A stretch of 21,918 bases of DNA from contig CAMLOU010000075.1 in the NCBI GenBank assembly GCA_946481735.1, forward strand, positions 1-21,918, written 5' to 3'. This stretch comes from an uncultured Cellvibrio sp. (GTDB lineage Bacteria > Pseudomonadota > Gammaproteobacteria > Pseudomonadales > Cellvibrionaceae). Made by a program: the position numbers and the translations under genes. The notes beneath the pieces are model-generated. The model saw only the letters and a program-made list of their open reading frames with translations, made no database searches and was not told the DNA's origin. Positions 18 to 19,968 of the stretch are shown here, in pieces. Position 1 is the first letter of the stretch. The number at the start of each line of letters is the position of its first letter.

Positions 18-45
18 AAAAGCCGCTGGAAACAGCGGCTTTTTT
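18..45 (+). terminator. Intrinsic terminator of an upstream off-window gene
   Basis: A perfect 11-bp stem (18-28 with 33-43) closes a GAAA tetraloop and runs into a T-tract (40-45). It should end the transcript of a gene lying left of the window. It also separates that gene from the halogenase cassette beginning at 121. The A-run on the 5' side makes it potentially bidirectional. Confidence 0.9.
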
Positions 46-120
46 AGCGCTTTACGCTGGCCCTGTTTTCTGTTCATACTGCGTGTTAATCAATAATTAT
101 TAGAAATCTGTAGGTCGTTT

Positions 121-1689
121 ATGACAGATCAAATAACCCGGGTTGTCATCGTGGGTGGCGGTTCCGCAGGTTGGTTATCGGCAGGTATAATTGCGGCATC
201 AAGTCCTGCGCATGTTCAGGTTACGCTGATCGAATCTCCCGATGTACACCCCATCGGTGTAGGCGAAGGTACCTGGCCTACCATGCGTGCAACCTTGCAA
301 ACTATCGGCGTATCAGAAACGGATTTTTTCCGTGAGTGTGATGCCAGCTTTAAACAAGGTTCCAAATTTTCCCGCTGGACAAGCTTGTCCCAAGAGGATG
401 ACTACTACCATCCGTTTACGCCACCGGCTAAATACCACGACATAAATCTGGCACCTTTCTGGTTGCCCTTCAAAGATAAAATCCCTTTTGCCAACGCGGT
501 TTGCCCGCAAGCGGCAATATGTGATGTGGGCAATGCGCCCAAACAAATTACCACGGCGGAATTCGGTGCGGTATTAAATTATGGCTACCATTTGGATGCC
601 GGAAAATTTGCGCCTTTTTTACACAAACATTGTGTAGAAAAGCTCGACGTACACTATGTCAGTGCGAATGTGATCCACATAAACTCGCAAGACAATGGCG
701 ATATAGAATCCGTGACGACCGATGCCCAGGGCAACATTCCTGGCGATTTATTTATCGATTGCACGGGTTTGTCATCTTTGCTAACGGAAAAGCATTACAG
801 CATTCCTTTTATTTCCCGGAAGACTGTTTTATTTAACGACGCTGCCCTTGCCGTGCAAATTCCCTATGCAGAGGATCAAACGGCTATTGCATCGCATACA
901 CTCTCCACTGCACAAACGAATGGCTGGATCTGGGATATTGGCTTGCAATCCCGGCGCGGTATTGGCCACGTGTTTTCCAGCGCTTATACGACAGATGAAG
1001 CTGCGGAGCGCGAGCTGCGTCATTACCTTGCTCCTTCGGTGGGTAGTGAATTGGCTGAAAAGCTGGCGGTCAGAAAGATTACGTTCAACCCCGGGCACAG
1101 GAAAACCTTCTGGCATAAAAACTGTGTAGCCATTGGATTGTCTGCCGGCTTTATCGAGCCGCTTGAGGCAACTGCCCTGGTATTGATCGAGCTGTCGGCA
1201 AAGATGATTGCGCAACAGTTTCCTGCTAATCGCAGGGTGATGGATACAATAGCCAAGCGCTTTAACAACACCATGAGCCATCACTGGGAACGCATTATCG
1301 ACTTCTTAAAATTACATTATGTATTGACCAGGCGCACCGATTCTGCCTACTGGCGTGATAACAGCGCTGCCAATACGATACCGGATAGCTTGAAAGAGCT
1401 GCTGGAATTATGGAAGGTGCAGTCGCCCTGGCTGCATGATGAAGTGCTGCGCGAAGAGATGTTTCCCTCTGCCAGTTACCAGTATGTCTATTATGGTATG
1501 AAAGGTACTACCGAGATTGCCTCCGGCAGCAGCACCCGTAATCGCAAACATATACACGAAAAACACTGGAAGAAAGCTGAAGCCTTGTTCATGGAAAATG
1601 CGCAGCATATCCAGCAACTGAAAAAAATATTGCAACCCAACCGCGAGCTGATAGAAAAAATAAAGCTCCATGGGATGCAGACGATCTAA
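121..1689 (+). CDS. Flavin-dependent tryptophan halogenase-like protein A (divergent)
   Basis: 522 aa, the usual length of the tryptophan halogenase (PrnA/RebH) superfamily. Known members use FADH2, oxygen and halide to make HOX, which reaches the substrate through a tunnel lysine. Seen: the N-terminal FAD motif GGGSAGW (residues 12-18), the GVGEGTWP loop (46-53), a lysine at 78 in ASFKQG aligning with PrnA Lys79, and the FIEPLEAT segment (344-351) with Glu349 aligning with PrnA Glu346. Odd: the family signature WxWxIP reads WIWDIG (269-274), and the Ser usual after the catalytic Glu is Ala350. The FAD fold is secure, but halogenation is doubtful and the substrate unknown. It starts at ATG 121 with only a weak AGG upstream. 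It is first in a cassette with a SapC protein, a cupin and a second halogenase. Similar proteins occur in TonB-dependent-receptor loci (family knowledge). Confidence 0.88.
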   Translation: MTDQITRVVIVGGGSAGWLSAGIIAASSPAHVQVTLIESPDVHPIGVGEGTWPTMRATLQTIGVSETDFFRECDASFKQGSKFSRWTSLSQEDDYYHPFTPPAKYHDINLAPFWLPFKDKIPFANAVCPQAAICDVGNAPKQITTAEFGAVLNYGYHLDAGKFAPFLHKHCVEKLDVHYVSANVIHINSQDNGDIESVTTDAQGNIPGDLFIDCTGLSSLLTEKHYSIPFISRKTVLFNDAALAVQIPYAEDQTAIASHTLSTAQTNGWIWDIGLQSRRGIGHVFSSAYTTDEAAERELRHYLAPSVGSELAEKLAVRKITFNPGHRKTFWHKNCVAIGLSAGFIEPLEATALVLIELSAKMIAQQFPANRRVMDTIAKRFNNTMSHHWERIIDFLKLHYVLTRRTDSAYWRDNSAANTIPDSLKELLELWKVQSPWLHDEVLREEMFPSASYQYVYYGMKGTTEIASGSSTRNRKHIHEKHWKKAEALFMENAQHIQQLKKILQPNRELIEKIKLHGMQTI

Positions 1690-1724
1690 TTTCCTTATTG
1701 GAGGCATTTCCTCCCGGAGACCCT

Positions 1725-2465
1725 ATGCCTAATTTTGCTCTGTTAAATAATGTCGCCCATAAAGCGTTACGCGTTATTCGTGAACACTCAACGCGCTACG
1801 GCGATAACGATATGTCAGTGGTGACCTTTCCACAGGAATTTCGCGCAGTACAAAATGAATACCCTATTTTTTTCCAGAAAAATGCAGAGACAGGAAAATT
1901 TATTCCTATTGCGTTAATGGGCTTGCGCCAGAATGAAAACCTGTTTCTGTCAGAGCAGGGATGGGACGCACAATATATTCCTGTGTCAGTAAAAAGAAGA
2001 CCTTTCCTGATCGGTATCCAACCGCCACAGCCCGGCCAGGAATCCAGTCAGCTCACCAAGATGGTGTATGTGGATATGGATAGCCCGCGCATCAGCGAGA
2101 CTCAGGGCGAGCCGGTCTTTTTACCCCACGGCGGCTATTCGCCCTATCTGGAATCGGTGGTGGATTTACTGGAGTACATCCAATACGGTACCGAGTTGAA
2201 TGAACAATTTGTTGATGCGTTGTTAGCTCAGGAGTTGTTGGAAGTGGTCGCGTTGGAAATCACCCTTAAAAATGGTGAGCGCCATAACCTGGCAGGGCTT
2301 TATACCATCAACGAAGATAAACTGGCGGCTTTACAAGGTGGTGCAATAACAGCGTTGCACAGTAAAGGCTTTATGGAATGCATCTACATGGTGTTGGCGT
2401 CCCATGCCAATGTTGTCAAGTTGATCGCCCGCGTTGAGAAAAAGTTAGCACATCAGGCATCCTGA
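1725..2465 (+). CDS. SapC-family protein
   Basis: 246 aa from ATG 1725. An in-frame TTG at 1698 would add nine residues, but CGGAGA (1715-1720) sits at the right distance for the ATG. The protein reads as the SapC family (PF07277): YPIFF near residue 45, then a GKFIPIALMGLRQNENLF block, W/Y-rich VKRRPFLIGI, a VDMDSPR strand and a helical C-terminal half. No signal peptide, membrane helix or catalytic motif is obvious. The name comes from a Campylobacter S-layer locus and does not establish a role here. In proteobacteria such proteins are repeatedly found beside tryptophan-halogenase-like genes and TonB receptors, so a partner role in that system is a reasonable inference. It lies 35 nt after halogenase A and 33 nt before the cupin gene, so co-transcription is likely. 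Confidence 0.85.
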   Translation: MPNFALLNNVAHKALRVIREHSTRYGDNDMSVVTFPQEFRAVQNEYPIFFQKNAETGKFIPIALMGLRQNENLFLSEQGWDAQYIPVSVKRRPFLIGIQPPQPGQESSQLTKMVYVDMDSPRISETQGEPVFLPHGGYSPYLESVVDLLEYIQYGTELNEQFVDALLAQELLEVVALEITLKNGERHNLAGLYTINEDKLAALQGGAITALHSKGFMECIYMVLASHANVVKLIARVEKKLAHQAS

Positions 2466-2498
2466 ATCATTTCCAACAAATGAAACCTGGCGGCATTT

Positions 2499-3512
2499 AT
2501 GATCAGCGTTGATAAAACAGTTAAAGTGATTGATGGCTGTACGCCAGACCGGATTCCGGATGAGGTCTTGTCATCAACGGAACCGTTAATCCTGAAAGGC
2601 TTGGCATCTTCCTGGCCGATTGTGCAGGCGGGTCTGGTTTCCGATGAAGATGCAGCGCGTTATTTATTGCAATTCTATCAAGGCCAGGAGGTGGCGGCCT
2701 TTTTAGGTAAGCCGGAGAACAACGGCCGTATTTTTTATAATGAAGCCCTCACAGGGTTTAACTACGATACTGTCAGCACCAAGCTGGATTTCGCGCTAAG
2801 GCAATTTGCTGCCCAGGCTGACAACGCTAAACCGCCCACCATTTATATTGGCTCTACAGTGATCGACAGTTATCTGCCGGGTTTTCGTGCCGATAATGAT
2901 CTTGATTTGCAGCAGCACAACCCACTCGTCAGTATCTGGTTGTCCAATAAATGCCGTATCGCCGCTCACTGGGACAGCCCGTTGAATATTGCCTGTTCGG
3001 TGGTCGGACACAGGCGCTTTACCTTATTTCCCTTCGAGCAAATGGAAAATCTCTATGTAGGCCCGCTGGATAAAACCCCGGCCGGACAAGCGATCAGCCT
3101 GGTGGATTTTTATAACCCTGATTTTGAAAAATTTCCCAAATTTAAACAGGCGTTAGAGCACGCCCGGACTGCCGATCTGGAACCAGGTGATGGCATCTTT
3201 ATTCCCAGCATGTGGTGGCATCATGTGGAAAGCCTGAGCCCGCTGAATATCCTGGTGAATTATTGGTTTAAAGGTTCGCCCGCATTGTATGGTAAGCCGG
3301 TCAATGCGCTGTTCCACTCGATCTTGTCCATTCGCGACTTGCCGCCCGAGCAGCGGGCAGCCTGGAAGATGATGTTTGATCATTATATTTTTGATTATTG
3401 CAAAGATAATTTTTCACATATCCCGGAACCAGCCCAAGGTGCCATTGGTGAATTGACGGATGATAACGCGCGGAAAATTCGTGCGAAATTATTGAACCAT
3501 TTAAACCGCTAA
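2499..3512 (+). CDS. Cupin_8/JmjC-like (FIH-type) Fe(II)/2-oxoglutarate oxygenase, Pass1-related
   Basis: 337 aa. The central double-stranded beta-helix carries an HxD metal pair at His157-Trp-Asp159. The distal histidine is in IPSMWWHHVESL (His241, possibly His242), followed by LVNYWFKGSP. This distal block closely resembles that of the asparaginyl hydroxylase FIH, so an Fe(II)/2-oxoglutarate-dependent hydroxylase or demethylase activity on a protein or peptide is the best inference. The substrate is unknown. Homologues in halogenase loci have been annotated as Pass1-related or cupin-like proteins. The start is ATG 2499 with a poor Shine-Dalgarno (GGCGG just upstream). The stop is followed directly by the leader of halogenase B, consistent with one operon. 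No membrane segment or export signal is seen. Confidence 0.85.
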   Translation: MISVDKTVKVIDGCTPDRIPDEVLSSTEPLILKGLASSWPIVQAGLVSDEDAARYLLQFYQGQEVAAFLGKPENNGRIFYNEALTGFNYDTVSTKLDFALRQFAAQADNAKPPTIYIGSTVIDSYLPGFRADNDLDLQQHNPLVSIWLSNKCRIAAHWDSPLNIACSVVGHRRFTLFPFEQMENLYVGPLDKTPAGQAISLVDFYNPDFEKFPKFKQALEHARTADLEPGDGIFIPSMWWHHVESLSPLNILVNYWFKGSPALYGKPVNALFHSILSIRDLPPEQRAAWKMMFDHYIFDYCKDNFSHIPEPAQGAIGELTDDNARKIRAKLLNHLNR

Positions 3513-3557
3513 GTGCACTCCACCGGCAGCCGGATAATAACAACGAATGGTATCAAT

Positions 3558-5054
3558 ATGATCGGCAATCAAACCGTTAAAAACCTGGTCATCGTGGGTG
3601 GCGGTACGGCGGGCTGGATGGCTGCAGCGGCTTTTTCCAAATTATTAGGGAAAAGTCTTTCTGTGACCCTGATTGAATCCGATGAAATTTCCACTGTCGG
3701 TGTTGGCGAAGCGACGGTGCCGCCCTTGATCCTGTTTAACCGTTACCTTGGTATTAACGAGCAGGAATTGATGGCCTTTGTGAAAGGAACCATCAAGTTA
3801 GGCATATCGTTTGAAAACTGGAAAAATGTCAACGAAAGTTACATCCATCCTTTTGGTTACACGGGTAAGGATACCTGGGCAGCCAGTTTCCAACACTTCT
3901 GGCGTAAAGGGTTGGAGTTAGGCGTGAATTACCCACTGGGTGAATACTCCGTGGAGTATCAAGCGGCATTACAGAATAAATTCTCTCACATGCCGGGATC
4001 ACCTTTGACCTATGCATACCATATCGACGCCGGTCTCTATGCAAGGTTTTTGCGCAGCATTGCTGAAAAGGCCGGTGCGACACGTATAGAAGGAAAGGTG
4101 CAGGATGTCGCTCTTGATGACGGCGGGTATATCAGGTCGATCCAGTTGGCTTCCGGTGAAACCGTTGCGGGCGATTTTTTTATCGATTGCTCCGGCTTCC
4201 GCGCATTGTTAATTGAACAGGCTTTACACACCGGTTTCGAAGACTGGTCACACTGGTTGCCCTGCGATAGTGCGCTGGCGGTGCAAACGGAATCGATTCG
4301 TGAGCCGGTGCCCTATACCCGATCCATCGCACACACCGCTGGCTGGCGCTGGCAAATTCCTTTACAGCACCGGGTCGGTAATGGCCTGGTGTATTGCAGC
4401 CGATATATGTCCGATGATGAGGCCAGAAAAACCCTGCTAGACAACGTCGAAGGTCGCATCATTTCTGAGCCAAAGATCATCCGCTTTAAAGCAGGTCAGC
4501 GCCTTAAGCATTGGAATAAAAATTGTGTCGCCTTGGGGTTGTCGAGTGGATTTATTGAGCCACTGGAATCCACCAGTATTCATTTGATTCAGCGCGGTAT
4601 AACGCGACTATTGCAAATGTTTCCTTCCAACGGAATTTTCAGCGGCGATATTGAAGAATACAATGCGCAGATGAAAACGGAAATCCTGTCCATAAGGGAT
4701 TTCATTGTGATGCATTATCATTTGACCGAAAGGGAAGACAGCGATTTCTGGCGCTATTGTAAAAATATGCCGATACCGGCATCGCTTGCGCATCGCATTA
4801 ATTTATTCAGGGAAACCGGAAAGCTTTTTGTGGAATCACCCTATAAGCTTTTTGCCGAACCATCCTGGCTGCATGTGATGGTAGGTCAGGGCGTTGTGCC
4901 TGAGCGTTATCATGCGGTGGCAAATGAAATGACCGATGCTGAATTGAAGCAGTTTCTGGAAGGTATCAGAAGCTCGGTACAGAAAACGGTTCAGAAGATG
5001 CCATTGCATCACGATTACTTACAATATTATTGCAAGGCGCCAGAGTGGACTTGA
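3558..5054 (+). CDS. Flavin-dependent tryptophan halogenase-like protein B (canonical motifs)
   Basis: 498 aa from ATG 3558. An in-frame GTG at 3513, directly after the cupin stop, would add 15 residues that look unlike the family. FAD motif GGGTAGW (14-20), GVGEATVPP (48-56) and the lysine in GTIKLG (Lys80) aligning with PrnA Lys79 are present. So are the complete WRWQIP signature (263-268) and FIEPLEST (332-339) with Glu337-Ser338. All residues associated with halogenation that I can place are therefore intact, unlike in the paralogue at 121-1689. Substrate and regiospecificity cannot be read from sequence; many TonB-locus members act on free indoles or have no known substrate. It is last in the plus-strand cassette and ends 17 bp from the convergent DUF6445 gene, with no clear terminator between them. 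Confidence 0.9.
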   Translation: MIGNQTVKNLVIVGGGTAGWMAAAAFSKLLGKSLSVTLIESDEISTVGVGEATVPPLILFNRYLGINEQELMAFVKGTIKLGISFENWKNVNESYIHPFGYTGKDTWAASFQHFWRKGLELGVNYPLGEYSVEYQAALQNKFSHMPGSPLTYAYHIDAGLYARFLRSIAEKAGATRIEGKVQDVALDDGGYIRSIQLASGETVAGDFFIDCSGFRALLIEQALHTGFEDWSHWLPCDSALAVQTESIREPVPYTRSIAHTAGWRWQIPLQHRVGNGLVYCSRYMSDDEARKTLLDNVEGRIISEPKIIRFKAGQRLKHWNKNCVALGLSSGFIEPLESTSIHLIQRGITRLLQMFPSNGIFSGDIEEYNAQMKTEILSIRDFIVMHYHLTEREDSDFWRYCKNMPIPASLAHRINLFRETGKLFVESPYKLFAEPSWLHVMVGQGVVPERYHAVANEMTDAELKQFLEGIRSSVQKTVQKMPLHHDYLQYYCKAPEWT

Positions 5055-5071
5055 CCTCCGGCTTTGCGGCG

Positions 5072-5782
5072 TTATTTTAAATAAATAAAACTGTTTAACG
5101 TTAGCCGCCCGACAAGCGGGTTGGGAACAAACTGGAATTTTTCAGGAATGGACGCGGAGTGTAATACATCACTGGGGTACATAATCAAACGGTTAAAGCT
5201 GGCTTCGTAACGGGCTATCTCTTCATAATATTGATTAGAGCCATTGATGTATTTGTTATGCCAGCTGGTATCCAGCGCTTCTTTGGCAAGATGCTCCCCA
5301 TACACATCCATTCGCTCGGGTGAAAGCTGTTCAAAACCGGTTGCTCTATGGCGATAGATTGATGTGCCACCTTTGTCAGGCGTACAAAGATAATGTACAC
5401 AGGCCAACTTTTCTTTCTTGATGGTATCCACATGCGGTCGCGATTGCGGCAACGCCAGGCGCGCGGGTGGCGTAAGCACAAGGGAATACATGGATTGGGA
5501 ATAATGTATGTTGTCTTTGGTGAGATGAAACGCTTCGCAAATAATATCAGGTAAGTAAGTTTGCAGTGCCTGGCTATAAAATTCCGGGACCTTTGATTGA
5601 ATGCCGGGGTAATAATCTGTCCCATCGCGGAACTCGCCAAATTTTACGGCAAAACCCAAGAGCGCTTCCGCTTCATGTAAAAAATTATCTATCACCAGCA
5701 CGGGGGTTTTTTCGTTACCTACAATATCAACCCGGTAGCGAAATTGAGGGTGTAGTGGAGGTAGAAAACTTTCAGTCGACAT
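5072..5782 (-). CDS. DUF6445-like protein, putative Fe(II)/2-oxoglutarate dioxygenase fold
   Basis: 236 aa, ATG at 5782. The sequence shows a prolyl-4-hydroxylase-like pattern: HVD (His117, Asp119), a distal histidine in SDVLHSAS (His208), and Arg226 where a 2-oxoglutarate carboxylate ligand would lie. The GGTSIYRHR strand (138-146) and the YYEEIARYEASFNRLIMYPS stretch also match this fold. I read it as DUF6445, which is commonly found near tryptophan-halogenase/SapC genes (family knowledge). It lies convergent to halogenase B with a 17-bp gap, so it has its own promoter while remaining part of the locus. No signal peptide is seen. The reaction is unknown; hydroxylation of a product or carrier made by the cassette is inference. 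The family call is fairly secure, the catalytic role moderate. Confidence 0.72.
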   Translation of the reverse strand: MSTESFLPPLHPQFRYRVDIVGNEKTPVLVIDNFLHEAEALLGFAVKFGEFRDGTDYYPGIQSKVPEFYSQALQTYLPDIICEAFHLTKDNIHYSQSMYSLVLTPPARLALPQSRPHVDTIKKEKLACVHYLCTPDKGGTSIYRHRATGFEQLSPERMDVYGEHLAKEALDTSWHNKYINGSNQYYEEIARYEASFNRLIMYPSDVLHSASIPEKFQFVPNPLVGRLTLNSFIYLK

Positions 5783-12669: not shown

Positions 12670-13935
12670 ATGGAAGAGAATATTTATCATCTTCAGTACG
12701 CCATGGACACCTTTTACTTCCTGGTGTGCGGCGCACTGGTTATGTGGATGGCCGCCGGCTTCGCCATGCTGGAGTCAGGCTTGGTACGCGCCAAGAACAC
12801 CACGGAAATTTTGACTAAAAACGTCGCGCTGTATGCGATAGCGTGCATCATGTACATGGTGTGTGGTTACGCCATTATGTACGGCGGCGATGTCTTCCTG
12901 ACCGGTATTCAGGAGGTTGATGTGACCGCCAAGCTTGGCGAGTTTGCCGAGCGAGAGGGCGGTTTCACCGGTGGCGCAATCTACTCTTCCGCGTCTGACT
13001 TCTTCTTTCAGGTGGTCTTCGTAGCTACCGCCATGTCAATCGTATCTGGTGCAGTAGCTGAGCGCATGAAGCTGTGGGCATTCCTGCTGTTCGCTGTGGT
13101 CATGACCGGCTTCATCTATCCGATGGAAGGCTCCTGGACCTGGGGTGCGGAAGGCAAATTCGGCTTGAACCTCGATGACCAGTTTGGCTTCAAGGATTTC
13201 GCGGGCTCGGGAATCGTTCACCTCGCTGGCGCCACGGCGGCATTGGCAGGTGTAATCCTTTTGGGAGCTCGAAAAGGCAAATACGGCCCCAACGGCGAAG
13301 TACACGCAATCACCGGTGCTAACCTGCCCCTGGCTACCTTGGGAACCTTCATCCTGTGGATGGGTTGGTTCGGCTTCAACGGTGGCTCTGTGTTGAAACT
13401 TGGCGATATCGGAAATGCCAACGCTGTGGCGATGGTGTTCCTGAACACTAACGCAGCGGCTGCCGGCGGTCTGGTTGGTGCTTTGATGGTTGCTCGTATC
13501 CTGTTTGGCAAAGCAGATTTAACCATGGCCCTGAATGGTGCTTTGGCTGGCCTTGTTGCTATCACTGCGAGCCCTGACTCGCCCAGCGCTCTGGCAGCAA
13601 CCATAATCGGAATCGTTGCGGGTATCATTGTTGTCTTCTCGATCATCGGGTTGGACAAATTGAAGATCGACGATCCGGTAGGTGCTATTTCGGTGCACGG
13701 CGTAGTTGGCCTGTTCGGATTGCTAGTTGTACCCTTCACCTCTGAAGGCACCACCTTCCTGGGTCAACTTATCGGTGCTGCGGTAATCTTTGCGTGGGTG
13801 TTTATTGCCAGCTTCGTTGTCTGGTTCATCATCAAGCTGGTTATCGGTATCCGTGTATCCGAAGAAGAAGAGTTCGAAGGTGTGGATATCGCTGAATGTG
13901 GTATGGAAGCCTACCCTGAGTTTACGCACAAGTAA
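12670..13935 (+). CDS. amtB: Ammonium transporter AmtB
   Basis: 421 aa, ATG 12670 with GGGG/GGAA just upstream. It is a membrane protein with about 11 hydrophobic segments and the Amt hallmarks: ESGLVRAKN (35-43), FFFQVVF (111-117) at the outer phenylalanine gate, DFAGSGIVHLAG with Asp177 and pore His184, GWFGFNGGS (232-240), and SVHGVVGLFG with the second pore His343. The cytosolic tail (VSEEEEFEGVDIAECGMEAYPEF) is the GlnK-responsive C-terminus. There is no cleavable signal peptide, unlike E. coli AmtB, but this is common in other proteobacteria. It conducts ammonium across the inner membrane when nitrogen is scarce. It is flanked by two glnK genes and probably co-transcribed with at least the first. 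Confidence 0.96.
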   Translation: MEENIYHLQYAMDTFYFLVCGALVMWMAAGFAMLESGLVRAKNTTEILTKNVALYAIACIMYMVCGYAIMYGGDVFLTGIQEVDVTAKLGEFAEREGGFTGGAIYSSASDFFFQVVFVATAMSIVSGAVAERMKLWAFLLFAVVMTGFIYPMEGSWTWGAEGKFGLNLDDQFGFKDFAGSGIVHLAGATAALAGVILLGARKGKYGPNGEVHAITGANLPLATLGTFILWMGWFGFNGGSVLKLGDIGNANAVAMVFLNTNAAAAGGLVGALMVARILFGKADLTMALNGALAGLVAITASPDSPSALAATIIGIVAGIIVVFSIIGLDKLKIDDPVGAISVHGVVGLFGLLVVPFTSEGTTFLGQLIGAAVIFAWVFIASFVVWFIIKLVIGIRVSEEEEFEGVDIAECGMEAYPEFTHK

Positions 13936-13948
13936 GACTCTCTCTGGC

Positions 13949-13976
13949 CCATCGCCCGGTAAATATCGGGCGATGG
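13949..13976 (+). terminator. Hairpin after amtB, no T-tract
   Basis: A perfect 10-bp stem CCATCGCCCG/CGGGCGATGG with an 8-nt loop begins 14 bp after the amtB stop. No T-run follows, so it may be a leaky terminator, a pause or a 3'-end stabiliser that uncouples glnK2 from amtB. Confidence 0.45.
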
Positions 13977-14113
13977 ATAGCAAAGCCATAATCTTGCAGT
14001 AAACTTGCTCCTGGCGGACTGATGATTTTCACGGGCGTTGCGTGTATCGTAACGGAACTTCACTGACGTTTCCGGGTTCTCAACCCAACGGCTGTGGCCA
14101 ATCAGATGAATAA

Positions 14114-14518
<405 letters not shown>

Positions 14519-16179: not shown

Positions 16180-17286
16180 GTGAATGAACCGCGTCCCCTG
16201 CTGATACTAAAGCAGTTGTCGAAAACCTATGGCGACAACCGCGTGCTGGATAATTTTGATCTGACGATCTTCGATGGTGAGTTCTTTACCCTCCTGGGGC
16301 CGTCAGGCTGTGGTAAAACCACTGTGCTGCGCATGATCGCCGGTCTGGAAGATGCTGACGTCGGTGAAATCCATTTGGCGGGGCAGGAAATCAGCAAGAT
16401 TCCGGCAGAGAAACGCCCGGTTAATACCGTGTTCCAGAGTTACGCACTCTTCCCGCACATGACCGTCTTTGACAATGTCGCCTTCGGCTTGAAGATGAGC
16501 AAGGTGCCGAAAGAAGAGATCAAACCGCGTGTGATGGAAGCCCTGGAGATGGTGCGCCTGGGTGATTTTGCCCAGCGTAAACCCAGCCAGTTGTCCGGTG
16601 GCCAGCAGCAACGCGTAGCCATCGCGCGCGCCGTGGTTAATCGCCCCAAACTGTTGCTCCTCGATGAATCCCTCAGTGCATTGGATTACAAACTCCGCCA
16701 ACAGATGCAGGTAGAGTTGAAACGCTTGCAACGCAAGCTGGGTATCACCTTTGTGTACGTCACACATGATCAGGAAGAAGCGTTGTCGATGTCTGATCGT
16801 GTGGTGGTCATGCACAAAGGCAAGGTGCAACAGTTGGGTACGCCGCGCGAGATTTATGAGCAGCCGGCCAACCTGTTTGTGGCGAAATTTATCGGTGAGA
16901 TCAACCAACTGGATGGTGAAATTGTTGCCATCGACGGTAACCACCAATACGAAGTAAAAGTAGAAGGCATGCAGTGGACCCTGCATGCTGAGCACAGCTT
17001 CAAGGTGGGCGATAAGGTGAACGTATTGTTGCGCCCCGAAGATCTGCGCGTGGAGTACCTGGAAGATGTGCACACCAGTCAGACGCTGACAGGTAAAATT
17101 GTCGAGCGCAATTACAAAGGTAAAACCCTCGACTCCATCATTCGTCTGCCGTCCGGTGCTGAGCTGATGACCAGCGAATTCTTTGACGAAGATGATCCAT
17201 CCTTCGATTACAGTCTGAACCAAAGCGTCGCCGTAAAATGGGTGCCGGGTTGGGAAGTGGTGTTGCCCTATGAAGCATCACATTAG
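16180..17286 (+). CDS. potA: Polyamine ABC transporter ATP-binding protein PotA
   Basis: 368 aa, GTG 16180 with AGGAG (16165-16169) 10 nt upstream. ABC ATPase of the PotA/PotG class: Walker A GPSGCGKT (40-47), Q-loop Gln86 in [10 protein letters not shown], signature LSGGQQQR (138-145), Walker B LLLLDE (158-163) and switch His196 in [14 protein letters not shown]. It is followed by a C-terminal TOBE regulatory domain (about 245-365). It energises import of spermidine or putrescine through the PotB/PotC channel. Its last 17 bases overlap potB, indicating translational coupling. Nothing is missing in the catalytic core. Assignment to polyamines rests mainly on the PotD partner. Confidence 0.93.
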
Positions 17287-18139
17287 TCAGTTTCGTTTTT
17301 GGGCCATCGGCCTTATCACCGTTTGGCTGGCACTGTTTGTGTTCATGCCCAACGTGTTGGTATTGATCACCAGCGTGCTGACCCGCGATACCGTCGACAC
17401 TGTGGCCTTGCCATTCAATGTGGAGAACTACGTTCGCACCCTGGATATTCTTTATCTGCAAGTGCTGCTGGATTCGCTGGGCATGTCATTGCTGGCGATG
17501 GTGGTGTGCTTGTTGATCGGTTACCCGTTTGCGATGTGCATCGCGCAGTTACCCAAGCGTTGGCAACCGATTCTATTATTTCTCGTGATCCTGCCGTTCT
17601 GGACCAATTCCCTGGTGCGCACCTACGCGCTGCAATTTATCCTCGGCAACAAGGGGTTGATCAATAACCTGCTGTTGTGGGTGGGCGTGATTGAAAAGCC
17701 GCTGCAGCTCTTGTACACCAAGTTTGCGGTGGTGCTTGGGTTGAGTTACATCCTGCTGCCTTTTATGGTGCTGCCATTGTTCTCCGCGCTGGAAAAACTC
17801 GATGTACGCTTGTTGCATGCAGCCAAAGATTTGGGCGCTGGCGCTTTCCATCGTTTCTGGCGCATCACGGTGCCGCTGACGTCGCCCGGTATTGTAGCCG
17901 GCTGTTTGATGGTGTTATTGCCGGCAATGGGCATGTTCTATATCTCTGATTTGCTCGGCGGTAAAAACCTGTTGCTCGGCAACGTGATCAAAACCCAGTT
18001 CCTCAACACACGCGATTGGCCCTTCGGTTCGGCGCTGAGTGTGTTGTTGATTGTCCTGCTCGGCTTCATGCTGTGGTTGTATTTCCGTGCGGCGAAATTT
18101 GTCAGTCGTCAGGGAGGCATCAATGACTCGGACTTTTAG
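17270..18139 (+). CDS. potB: Polyamine ABC transporter permease PotB
   Basis: 289 aa, ATG 17270, inside the end of potA (17-nt overlap). It has six hydrophobic segments; the first is [19 protein letters not shown] after a short basic N-terminus. The EAA loop that contacts the ATPase reads [26 protein letters not shown] (about 183-208), with His in place of the usual Glu at the first position. The [13 protein letters not shown] block is typical of PotB/PotH permeases. It forms the inner-membrane channel together with PotC. It ends overlapping potC by 17 nt. Confidence 0.92.
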
Positions 18140-18890
18140 ATTCAGCTTCCTGGGCCTGGTGTTATTTTTTATCTACCTGCCGATCGGCGTGTTGGTGGTG
18201 AACTCCTTCAACGGCTCGCGTTACGGTACCAGTTGGCAAGGGTTTACGCTGAAGTGGTATGAACGGTTGTTGGCCAATGAAAGCTTGATGACTGCCGCCA
18301 CCCATTCACTGACCATCGCCGTGGCGGCCGCCACCGTTGCGACCATCATCGGTACACTGGGTGCCGTTGCGCTTTATCGCTACCAATTTCGCGGCAAGGC
18401 GGCTTTATCTTCCATGGTGTTCGTCAGTATGCTGACGCCGGATATCGTGATGGCGATTTCGCTGCTGATTATCTTTATCGCCATCGGCATCGAGTTAGGC
18501 TTTATTTCCTTGCTGTTAGCGCACATCACCTTTTGTTTGCCCTTTGTGATTATTGCCGTGTATTCGCGTTTGCGCGGTTTTGATGTCAAGATGCTGGAAG
18601 CCGCGCGCGATCTCGGCGCGTCTGAAAGCCGCGTCTTCTGGAAAATTATTTTGCCACTGGCGATTCCCGCAGTGGCGTCAGGATGGTTATTAAGCTTCAC
18701 GCTGTCATTGGACGACGTGATTGTAAGCGCATTCGTCACCGGCCCCGGCTATGAAATATTACCGCTCAAGGTATATTCCATGGTGCGCGTCGGTGTTTCA
18801 CCGGAGGTAAATGCCATCTCGACACTGCTGTTGGTTGTGTCCCTGGTATTGGTCATCATTTCCCAACTTCTTTTACGTGAGGAACGCTAA
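18123..18890 (+). CDS. potC: Polyamine ABC transporter permease PotC
   Basis: 255 aa from ATG 18123, with AGGGAGG 6 nt upstream; the frame is open further 5' but that part only overlaps potB. The N-terminal helix LGLVLFFIYLPIGVLVVNSFN and the SWQGFTLKWYERLL stretch are typical of PotC/PotI. About six membrane segments are present. The EAA loop reads LEAARDLGASESRVFWKIILPLAIPAV. LDDVIVSAFVTGPGYEILPLKVYSMVRVGVSPEVNA is the conserved C-terminal block. It pairs with PotB in the channel. The stop is 1 nt before the potD ATG. Confidence 0.93.
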   Translation: MTRTFRFSFLGLVLFFIYLPIGVLVVNSFNGSRYGTSWQGFTLKWYERLLANESLMTAATHSLTIAVAAATVATIIGTLGAVALYRYQFRGKAALSSMVFVSMLTPDIVMAISLLIIFIAIGIELGFISLLLAHITFCLPFVIIAVYSRLRGFDVKMLEAARDLGASESRVFWKIILPLAIPAVASGWLLSFTLSLDDVIVSAFVTGPGYEILPLKVYSMVRVGVSPEVNAISTLLLVVSLVLVIISQLLLREER

Positions 18891-18891
18891 G

Positions 18892-19968
18892 ATGAAAAAA
18901 ATGTGGGCATTTGCCATCGCCGTAGCCTGGATACTCAGCGGTTGTAGCGATAAATCCGACAGCGAGGCCGGCACGGCTGATGCGGCACCGAAGTCCGACG
19001 AAAAAGTCGTCATCTACAACTGGACCGAATATATTCCGGAAGATGTCTTGCAGGCTTTCACCAAAGAAACCGGCATTCAGGTGGAGTACGCAACTTACGA
19101 AAGTAATGAGGCCATGTATTCCAAATTGAAATTGCTGGACGGCAAGGGTTATGACCTTGCAGTGCCCTCCACCTTCTATGTGGAGAAGATGCGCAAAGAA
19201 GGTTTGATTCAACCGATCAACAAAGAATTGCTCAGCAACTACGCCAACCTCGACCCCTCACTGCTGAACAAACCCTATGATCCCGATAACAGTTACAGCG
19301 TGCCTTATTTGTGGGGCAGTACCTCTATTGCGGTGAATGGCGATGAGGTAGACGCGAGCCAGATCACCAAGTGGGCCGACCTGTGGAAGCCGGAATACGC
19401 GGGCAAGCTGATGGTGATGGACGATGTGCGCGATAATTTTTACGTGGGGCTGCGCGTAGCGGGTTTTGAAAACAATAGCACCAATGAAGACGAAATTCGT
19501 GCAGCTTACGAAAAATTAAAAGCGCTGTGGCCGAGCATCAAGATGATCAACTCCGACTCGCCCAAATCACCGCTGATTAAAGGTGAAGTGAGCATTGGTG
19601 CGATCTGGAATGGTGAAGCCTATATGGCCCAGGAAGAATTGCCGAACCTGACATACATTTACCCGGAAGAGGGTGCGGTGTTGTGGGTCGACAGTTTTGT
19701 GATTCCCAAGGGCGCAGCTAACGTAGAGAATGCGCACAAATTTATCGACTTTATGCTGCGTGCAGAGAGCGGTAAAGCGGCAATTGAGGAGCTGGGTTAC
19801 GCGGCACCGAACATTCCCGCCATTGCGTTGCTGGATGAAAAGCTGCGCAATAACAAGATCGTTTTTCCGGACAAGGCTGACATAGATCGCGGCAGTTTCC
19901 ACCAGGACCTGGGCGATACCGTACTGGTGTATGAAAAATACTGGCAGATGTTAAAAGCCGGTCAATAA
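18892..19968 (+). CDS. potD: Polyamine-binding protein PotD, lipoprotein form
   Basis: 358 aa from ATG 18892, with GAGGAACG just upstream. The signal peptide ends in a lipobox LSGC with Cys18, so this is a predicted lipoprotein, whereas E. coli PotD is a soluble periplasmic protein. The mature part matches PotD along its length: YNWTEYIPEDVL, YESNEAMYSKLK, PSTFYVEKMRKEGLIQ, ADLWKPEYAGKL, IWNGEAY, LWVDSF, and the terminal QMLKAG. Aromatic and acidic ligand positions known from E. coli PotD (Trp34, Tyr37, Trp229, Trp255, Asp257, numbering from memory) are kept. The position of Glu171 is Asp here (DDVRDNF). It captures spermidine or putrescine and delivers it to PotBC. It is last in the operon. 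Confidence 0.93.
   Translation: MKKMWAFAIAVAWILSGCSDKSDSEAGTADAAPKSDEKVVIYNWTEYIPEDVLQAFTKETGIQVEYATYESNEAMYSKLKLLDGKGYDLAVPSTFYVEKMRKEGLIQPINKELLSNYANLDPSLLNKPYDPDNSYSVPYLWGSTSIAVNGDEVDASQITKWADLWKPEYAGKLMVMDDVRDNFYVGLRVAGFENNSTNEDEIRAAYEKLKALWPSIKMINSDSPKSPLIKGEVSIGAIWNGEAYMAQEELPNLTYIYPEEGAVLWVDSFVIPKGAANVENAHKFIDFMLRAESGKAAIEELGYAAPNIPAIALLDEKLRNNKIVFPDKADIDRGSFHQDLGDTVLVYEKYWQMLKAGQ

Follow-up and report, generated by a model that had tools for sequence, protein, structure and literature searches.

The contig studied here (CAMLOU010000075.1 of assembly GCA_946481735.1, from an uncultured Cellvibrio sp.; its whole length of 21,918 nucleotides is referred to as the window) opens with a cassette of five genes coding for two flavin halogenase-like enzymes, HalA and HalB, a SapC-family protein, an FIH-like cupin and a DUF6445 protein. 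Related cassettes recur, in varying subsets, directly downstream of genes for TonB-dependent receptors (TBDRs), and we tentatively read them as serving the modification of those receptors. The features at the locus are as follows.

20-48, plus strand: GC-rich, intrinsic-terminator-like hairpin with a T run, recognised from near-identical hairpins in three related loci (L001, L003 and L004)
121-1689, plus strand: HalA, flavin halogenase-family monooxygenase of the 2PYX type (Pfam and sequence comparison)
1725-2465, plus strand: SapC-family protein (Pfam); the open reading frame (ORF) opens at TTG 1698, ATG 1725 being the likelier start
2499-3512, plus strand: FIH-like JmjC protein, Cupin_8 (Pfam and residues read in the sequence)
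3513-5054, plus strand: HalB, Xcc4156/BrvH-type flavin halogenase (Pfam and sequence comparison); GTG start, with an alternative in-frame ATG at 3558
5072-5782, minus strand: DUF6445 protein, predicted Fe(II)/2-oxoglutarate (2OG) oxygenase (Pfam, invariant residues and fold)

Four plus-strand genes and one convergent gene thus lie where the original prediction had placed them, and all five of its family calls are upheld by strong Pfam matches (E-values of 2.9e-117 and 1.1e-183 to Trp_halogenase for the two halogenases, 7.6e-69 to SapC, 2.2e-68 to Cupin_8 and 2.4e-73 to DUF6445). Both halogenases match PF04820 over their full length, at 392.8 and 611.7 bits with a cut-off of 21. It had further held that this is no ordinary halogenated-metabolite cluster: a Pfam scan of 19 window proteins revealed no nonribosomal peptide synthetase, polyketide synthase or flavin reductase (overlapping and some small ORFs stood outside the scan, and sequence to the left of the window is beyond view), and the combination of scaffold enzyme and dedicated reductase expected of a halogenated natural-product cluster is absent from these 19. 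None of the five cassette proteins matched a PADLOC anti-phage defence model, and no N-terminal signal peptide was evident in them when read by eye, no predictor having been used.

Related loci were collected via HalB from genome contigs, and the best 80 of at least 575 were compared; HalB cassettes are over-represented in this set, and two of its members (L072 and L073) are identical. In 74 of the 80 loci the gene immediately upstream, in the same orientation, codes for a TBDR; five of the six exceptions are at contig ends, and the sixth (L043) has its TBDR in two pieces. SapC is present in 76 loci, the cupin family in 73, a HalA-type protein in 53 and DUF6445 in 51, with all five in 30. When the window is counted as well, SapC and cupin are same-strand neighbours 70 times, cupin and HalB 69, HalA and SapC 50, and HalB and DUF6445 48; median gaps are 5-44 bases for these pairs and 202 for TBDR and HalA, and the gene order is conserved in many genera.

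Four genomes picked for carrying cassettes contain 66 halogenases scoring above 300 bits (26, 16, 15 and 9 per genome). A TBDR, defined here by TIGR01782, is found within 3 kb of 53 of these, where about 3.5 would be expected by chance, and within 6 kb of 59; of the 31 that lie within 1 kb of a TBDR, 30 are downstream of it on the same strand. Seen from the receptors, 41 of the 89 TIGR01782 TBDRs have a halogenase or SapC gene no more than 3 kb away, and for 42 the distance exceeds 15 kb. The genome with 26 halogenase-family proteins is that of a Cellvibrio (G001, from which L004 derives); several of their genes stand in tandem next to TBDRs, and 14 of its TBDRs are linked.

A survey that was not anchored on HalB covered 299 genomes from the phylum of G001 (a Cellvibrio metagenome-assembled genome; Pseudomonadota), counting halogenases above 250 bits and DUF6445 above 190 bits, with scoring limited in one step to the top five candidates of each genome. 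SapC occurs in 104 genomes, a halogenase in 36 and DUF6445 in 14. With kinship ignored, SapC is associated with the halogenase (35 of 36 positive genomes and 69 of 263 others; Fisher p = 3e-17), as is the halogenase with DUF6445 (14 of 14 and 22 of 285; p = 1e-14). Forty SapC regions were picked by hand from the resulting lists. Among the 28 in halogenase-positive genomes, a same-strand upstream TBDR is present in 22, a convergent one in L282 and none in L278, L292, L293 and L302, while L291 is cut by a contig end. The original prediction had expected such sets to recur near TBDRs and named a lack of repeated co-occurrence as what would speak against it; the five families do recur, together and beside TBDRs.

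The window itself begins 120 bases 5' of HalA. Its hairpin at 20-48 nearly matches the one between TBDR and HalA/SapC in L001, L003 and L004, and hairpins occur in 39 of 72 measured TBDR-to-cassette gaps (0.2 expected from mononucleotide shuffles). Because this hairpin corresponds to one found 3' of the TBDR in relatives, a TBDR gene most likely ends just left of the window, with 20-48 as its putative terminator.

The cassettes are modular. A TBDR may be accompanied by HalB, by HalA and SapC, by SapC alone (L240), by SapC and the cupin (L248), or by further combinations up to all five genes, and since receptors with SapC alone or with a single halogenase exist, the receptor is the common element. 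For comparison, 40 of 45 linked and 40 of 42 far unlinked receptor regions of the four genomes were retrieved, and a tree of 179 TBDRs (excluding L241, L263, L264 and L072, and keeping four duplicate SapC-type receptors) indicates that TBDR subfamily predicts cassette type. Separating receptors of SapC cassettes from the rest takes 4 changes, and separating linked from unlinked receptors takes 10; 100 shuffles never needed fewer than 46 and 30, respectively. In the distance comparisons, and in the residue search below, the four duplicates were removed (105 of 109 kept). Over 47 matched loci, pairwise TBDR distances correlate with those of SapC (0.91), HalB (0.89) and the cupin (0.82) more closely than with those of the neighbouring MFS protein (0.71); the values are 0.69 for HalA (32 loci) and 0.64 for LacI (31 loci), and in 26 loci with all six genes and MFS the TBDR correlations are 0.67-0.77, against 0.62 for MFS. 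We regard co-inheritance with the TBDR as firm for SapC, HalB and DUF6445. Operon co-transfer would itself yield congruent distances, and the reading that independent enzymes without joint function hitch-hike in polysaccharide-use loci can also draw on the wide variation of the subsets and on the unmatched sets, in which HalA and the cupin follow the TBDR least closely. It is hard to reconcile with the association at genome level in the 299 genomes, with an order maintained across many genera and with flanking polysaccharide-use genes that are less constant, and we consider it highly improbable.

The commonest flanking clusters in 103 loci, named from one representative each, are GH3 and MFS_2 (48 each), LacI (39), GH1 (23), another MFS group (22) and GH16 (19). 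These flanks point to beta-glucan use for many loci and accord with the glycan-degrading context that had been suggested for such sets. A further reading is that the enzymes act in the cytosol on an imported ligand, namely an aromatic-decorated glycan fragment, which would suit their close association with receptors and with GH3, GH1, GH16, GH43, MFS and LacI genes. Beta-glucans, however, offer no aromatic ring for halogenation, TBDR-enzyme distances correlate above TBDR-MFS distances on matched loci, and no glycan-use gene is among the scanned window genes, the left side being beyond view; action on an imported glycan is thus distinctly unlikely.

Both halogenases have catalytic-type residues intact: K78, E349 and W269/W271 in HalA, and K95, E352 and the WxWxIP motif in HalB. 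The catalytic Lys and Glu are both retained in 74 of 74 HalA and 157 of 164 HalB-like sequences, as in the window proteins, and the motif has G instead of P in 62 of the 74 HalA-type proteins, window HalA included. The best solved relative of HalA, a 'tryptophan halogenase' (2PYX, 571 bits), is one we take to be a Shewanella structural-genomics protein. At E <= 1e-50 HalA has at least 7999 relatives, many of the named ones labelled 'tryptophan halogenase'; among the matches listed, the nearest entry is 96% identical and Cellvibrio-named entries near the top are 78-82% identical, identities by which the window appears Cellvibrio-like. HalB is nearest to Xcc4156 (6Y1W, 625 bits), 9LUQ and BrvH (6FRL, 448 bits) among solved structures. 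A YSY-type C-terminal segment is a mark of free-Trp halogenases (the group of PrnA and RebH), and it is not retained in HalB. In the available text of the papers on Xcc4156 and BrvH (PMC7336383; PMC5945002), both enzymes have an open active site, do not halogenate free Trp and accept free indole, and their natural substrate is given as unknown, with a peptide suggested; the BrvH authors doubted that indole is the natural substrate, activity being low (PMC5945002).

Diverged halogenase paralogues without the catalytic Lys and Glu (51-99 bits to the HalB profile) stand amid intact ones in L234, L245, L249 and L299; to judge from their residues they are likely pseudo-enzymes, and perhaps scaffolds. 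Halogenase-like proteins of 939 and 793 amino acids, likewise without catalytic Lys and Glu, are encoded at L292:10621-13440 (minus strand) and L293:4565-6946 (plus strand), in regions that hold SapC and ORFs of 1765-2028 amino acids and in which no TBDR was detected.

The two remaining enzymes had been called probable Fe(II)/2OG proteins, with which profile matches, residues and fold agree. The cupin carries an iron-binding-type HxD (HWD) and a distal His, read in the window sequence alone, and belongs to the JmjC/Cupin_8 group by its Cupin_8 match and an FIH match at 1e-21. Its closest solved sequences are the JmjC protein hydroxylases FIH and JMJD5, in alignments covering only about 110-120 residues. 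In DUF6445, H117, D119, H208 and R226 are invariant in 46 relatives, giving an HxD...H triad plus an Arg that would bind 2OG; the predicted fold is a double-stranded beta-helix, and the protein is almost surely an Fe(II)/2OG oxygenase. Among its best structural matches, by likeness of fold only, are OGFOD1, Tpa1, PHD2, LH3/lysyl hydroxylases and the Pseudomonas P4H that is connected with EF-Tu.

Enzymes of these kinds might instead make or alter a diffusible aromatic small molecule (a signal, a siderophore-like compound or a defence compound) for uptake by the partner TBDR. Known members of the halogenase family act on tryptophan or indole, including Xcc4156 and BrvH on free indole, TBDRs import small molecules, and DUF6445 has several small-molecule enzymes among its structural neighbours. 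Yet no scaffold-building enzyme, carrier or exporter is seen in the cassettes, the recurrent flanks are glycan-use genes, and 26 halogenases with 14 linked TBDRs in one genome would be odd for a single signal; the missing YSY-type segment and the doubts of the BrvH authors about indole also speak against a small molecule, which we judge unlikely.

SapC has a confidently predicted fold with no match in the PDB, and 69 of the 299 genomes carry SapC without a halogenase above 250 bits. A further 20 SapC regions were picked by hand from the lists of the 299-genome survey, in six of which (L315, L317, L319, L323, L324 and L327) the cassette-trained profile has no match at SapC. Away from halogenases, neighbours were scanned at 11 SapC loci, and five of these have export genes: RTX with HlyD (L309), a SecA-like protein (L308), OEP (L307 and L321) and a TPS adhesin with ShlB (L303). 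SapC may therefore be a broader handler of exported proteins. At L308:8202-11048 the short SecA-like ATPase directly adjoins SapC, and at L309:1-11588 SapC stands next to the giant RTX protein with HlyD. A Mu-type portal protein gene adjoins SapC at L312:7889-9976, and the neighbours in L313 and L314 are similar in size. The available text of PMC11059613 describes a cluster of SapC with type I secretion.

This wider company, and the lack of an adjacent TBDR at some cassettes, would fit a kit that acts on some partner of the TBDR, either another exported or periplasmic protein or a dedicated peptide (TonB, for example, or a ribosomal peptide). Outside the five families, however, the TBDR is the most constant element (74 of 80 loci, as against 48 of 103 for the commonest flanking cluster). 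Small ORFs in the gaps between TBDR and cassette, 107 of them in 41 of 72 gaps, have 105 cross-locus matches, and those listed are between close relatives. Such a partner protein or peptide as the target is in our view quite unlikely.

Gene content, operon-like order, linkage, co-inheritance, modularity and catalytic-type residues lead us to infer that the cassette codes for a kit that works in the cytosol and post-translationally modifies the TonB-dependent glycan receptor with which it is paired; we put the prospects of this proposal just short of even. We favour action on the receptor before it is exported because the TBDR is constant, no export signal was read in the enzymes, SapC is found near exported proteins, and the closest solved relatives or folds include ones that act, or are suspected of acting, on proteins (FIH, JMJD5, OGFOD1, Tpa1, lysyl hydroxylases, PHD2, the EF-Tu P4H and Xcc4156/BrvH). 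SapC would bind the receptor while it is still unfolded, ahead of Sec export, and present segments of it; HalB, with HalA where present, would oxidise aromatic side chains by halogenation or hydroxylation, the FIH-like cupin would hydroxylate residues of Asn/Asp/His type, and DUF6445 those of Pro/Lys type. The terminator that often ends the receptor gene would need to be leaky, giving much receptor and little enzyme, which suits catalysts whose substrate is abundant. The kit would probably serve to tune or harden the glycan-binding vestibule or plug. Of the substrates guessed at in the original prediction, the receptor fits best and a scavenged indole-like compound less well, since the neighbours are GH3, GH1, GH16, MFS and LacI genes and the cassette genes are variously combined around the receptor; a shared peptide is conceivable.

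Several results weigh against receptor modification. On unmatched sets, the distance correlations of HalA (0.35) and the cupin (0.52) with the TBDR fall below those of MFS (0.71) and LacI (0.76), for which reason co-inheritance is soft for these two proteins, and small-molecule enzymes rank near the protein hydroxylases among the structural matches of DUF6445. A search for target residues in 93 TBDRs at 95% identity found Y267, W498 and W633 (L004 numbering) to correlate best with HalB or the cupin, with only 7 and 10 negatives among the 93 and few clades, and L248, which lacks HalB, retains all three while L240 retains two. Enrichment of Trp in the HalB/cupin comparison is weak (p = 0.052 and 0.030, uncorrected) and is absent when halogenase-only receptors are compared with unlinked ones (p = 0.37), and no residue type in the 93 TBDRs fits the presence of HalA or DUF6445. 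The residue test is weaker in both directions because a receptor could also be acted on in trans, by enzymes from cassettes elsewhere in its genome.

The remaining scanned genes of the window are housekeeping-like (a UvrD/Rep helicase, a GGDEF-EAL response regulator, YifB, a SutA-like protein, UbiA, a type I phosphodiesterase and two sets of transporter genes), and two small ORFs have no family match in Pfam or NCBIfam. Of the transporters, one for ammonium (TIGR03644, the 'marine subtype') is followed by a P-II gene at 12670-14515, and 16180-19968 codes for a polyamine-type ABC transporter with a PotA-like ATPase, two permeases and a solute-binding protein.

In its widest form, the proposal would be that a widespread class of TBDR is matured in the cytosol, with SapC as a chaperone-adaptor of new fold handing the nascent receptor to flavin halogenases and Fe(II)/2OG hydroxylases, which would furnish it with the halogenated or hydroxylated residues that glycan uptake requires; this is possible, although we would sooner expect it to fail than to hold. 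If it is true, many orphan bacterial 'tryptophan halogenases' are receptor-modifying enzymes, and receptor modification, if real, would represent a new form of maturation for outer-membrane proteins and bear on glycan uptake by marine and soil bacteria. The link to a specific, purifiable outer-membrane receptor makes the substrate question for orphan halogenases testable by mass spectrometry, and gives DUF6445 a candidate chemistry and SapC a candidate role.

Every part of the cassette belongs to a known family, and the peptide-substrate idea for relatives of HalB is already in print (PMC7336383; PMC5945002, as far as their available text goes); within the literature library searched, no paper was listed that joins halogenase, SapC and TBDR. 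As in cassettes with HalA and HalB, a second halogenase gene adjoins that of BrvH (available text of PMC5945002). A term search of the available text of both papers gave neither TonB nor SapC, and in PMC5945002 neither 'receptor' nor 'cupin'; unlike Xcc4156 and BrvH as described there, HalB is placed in a receptor-linked kit.

Protein-modifying flavoenzymes of the QhpG, LodB and GoxB families are weak NCBIfam matches, both halogenases matching QhpG and LodB and HalB also GoxB. Membership of QhpG, a peptidyl-Trp monooxygenase, was rejected for both (32.3 and 30.4 bits with a cut-off of 240). In the QhpG-type model, a peptidyl side chain is oxidised by a flavoenzyme before export. The Pfam family name of SapC presumably derives from Campylobacter SapC, of an S-layer export locus. 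Some of the SapC loci described here share this company of export genes, whereas SapC of the cassettes is found instead with a TBDR and oxidising enzymes.

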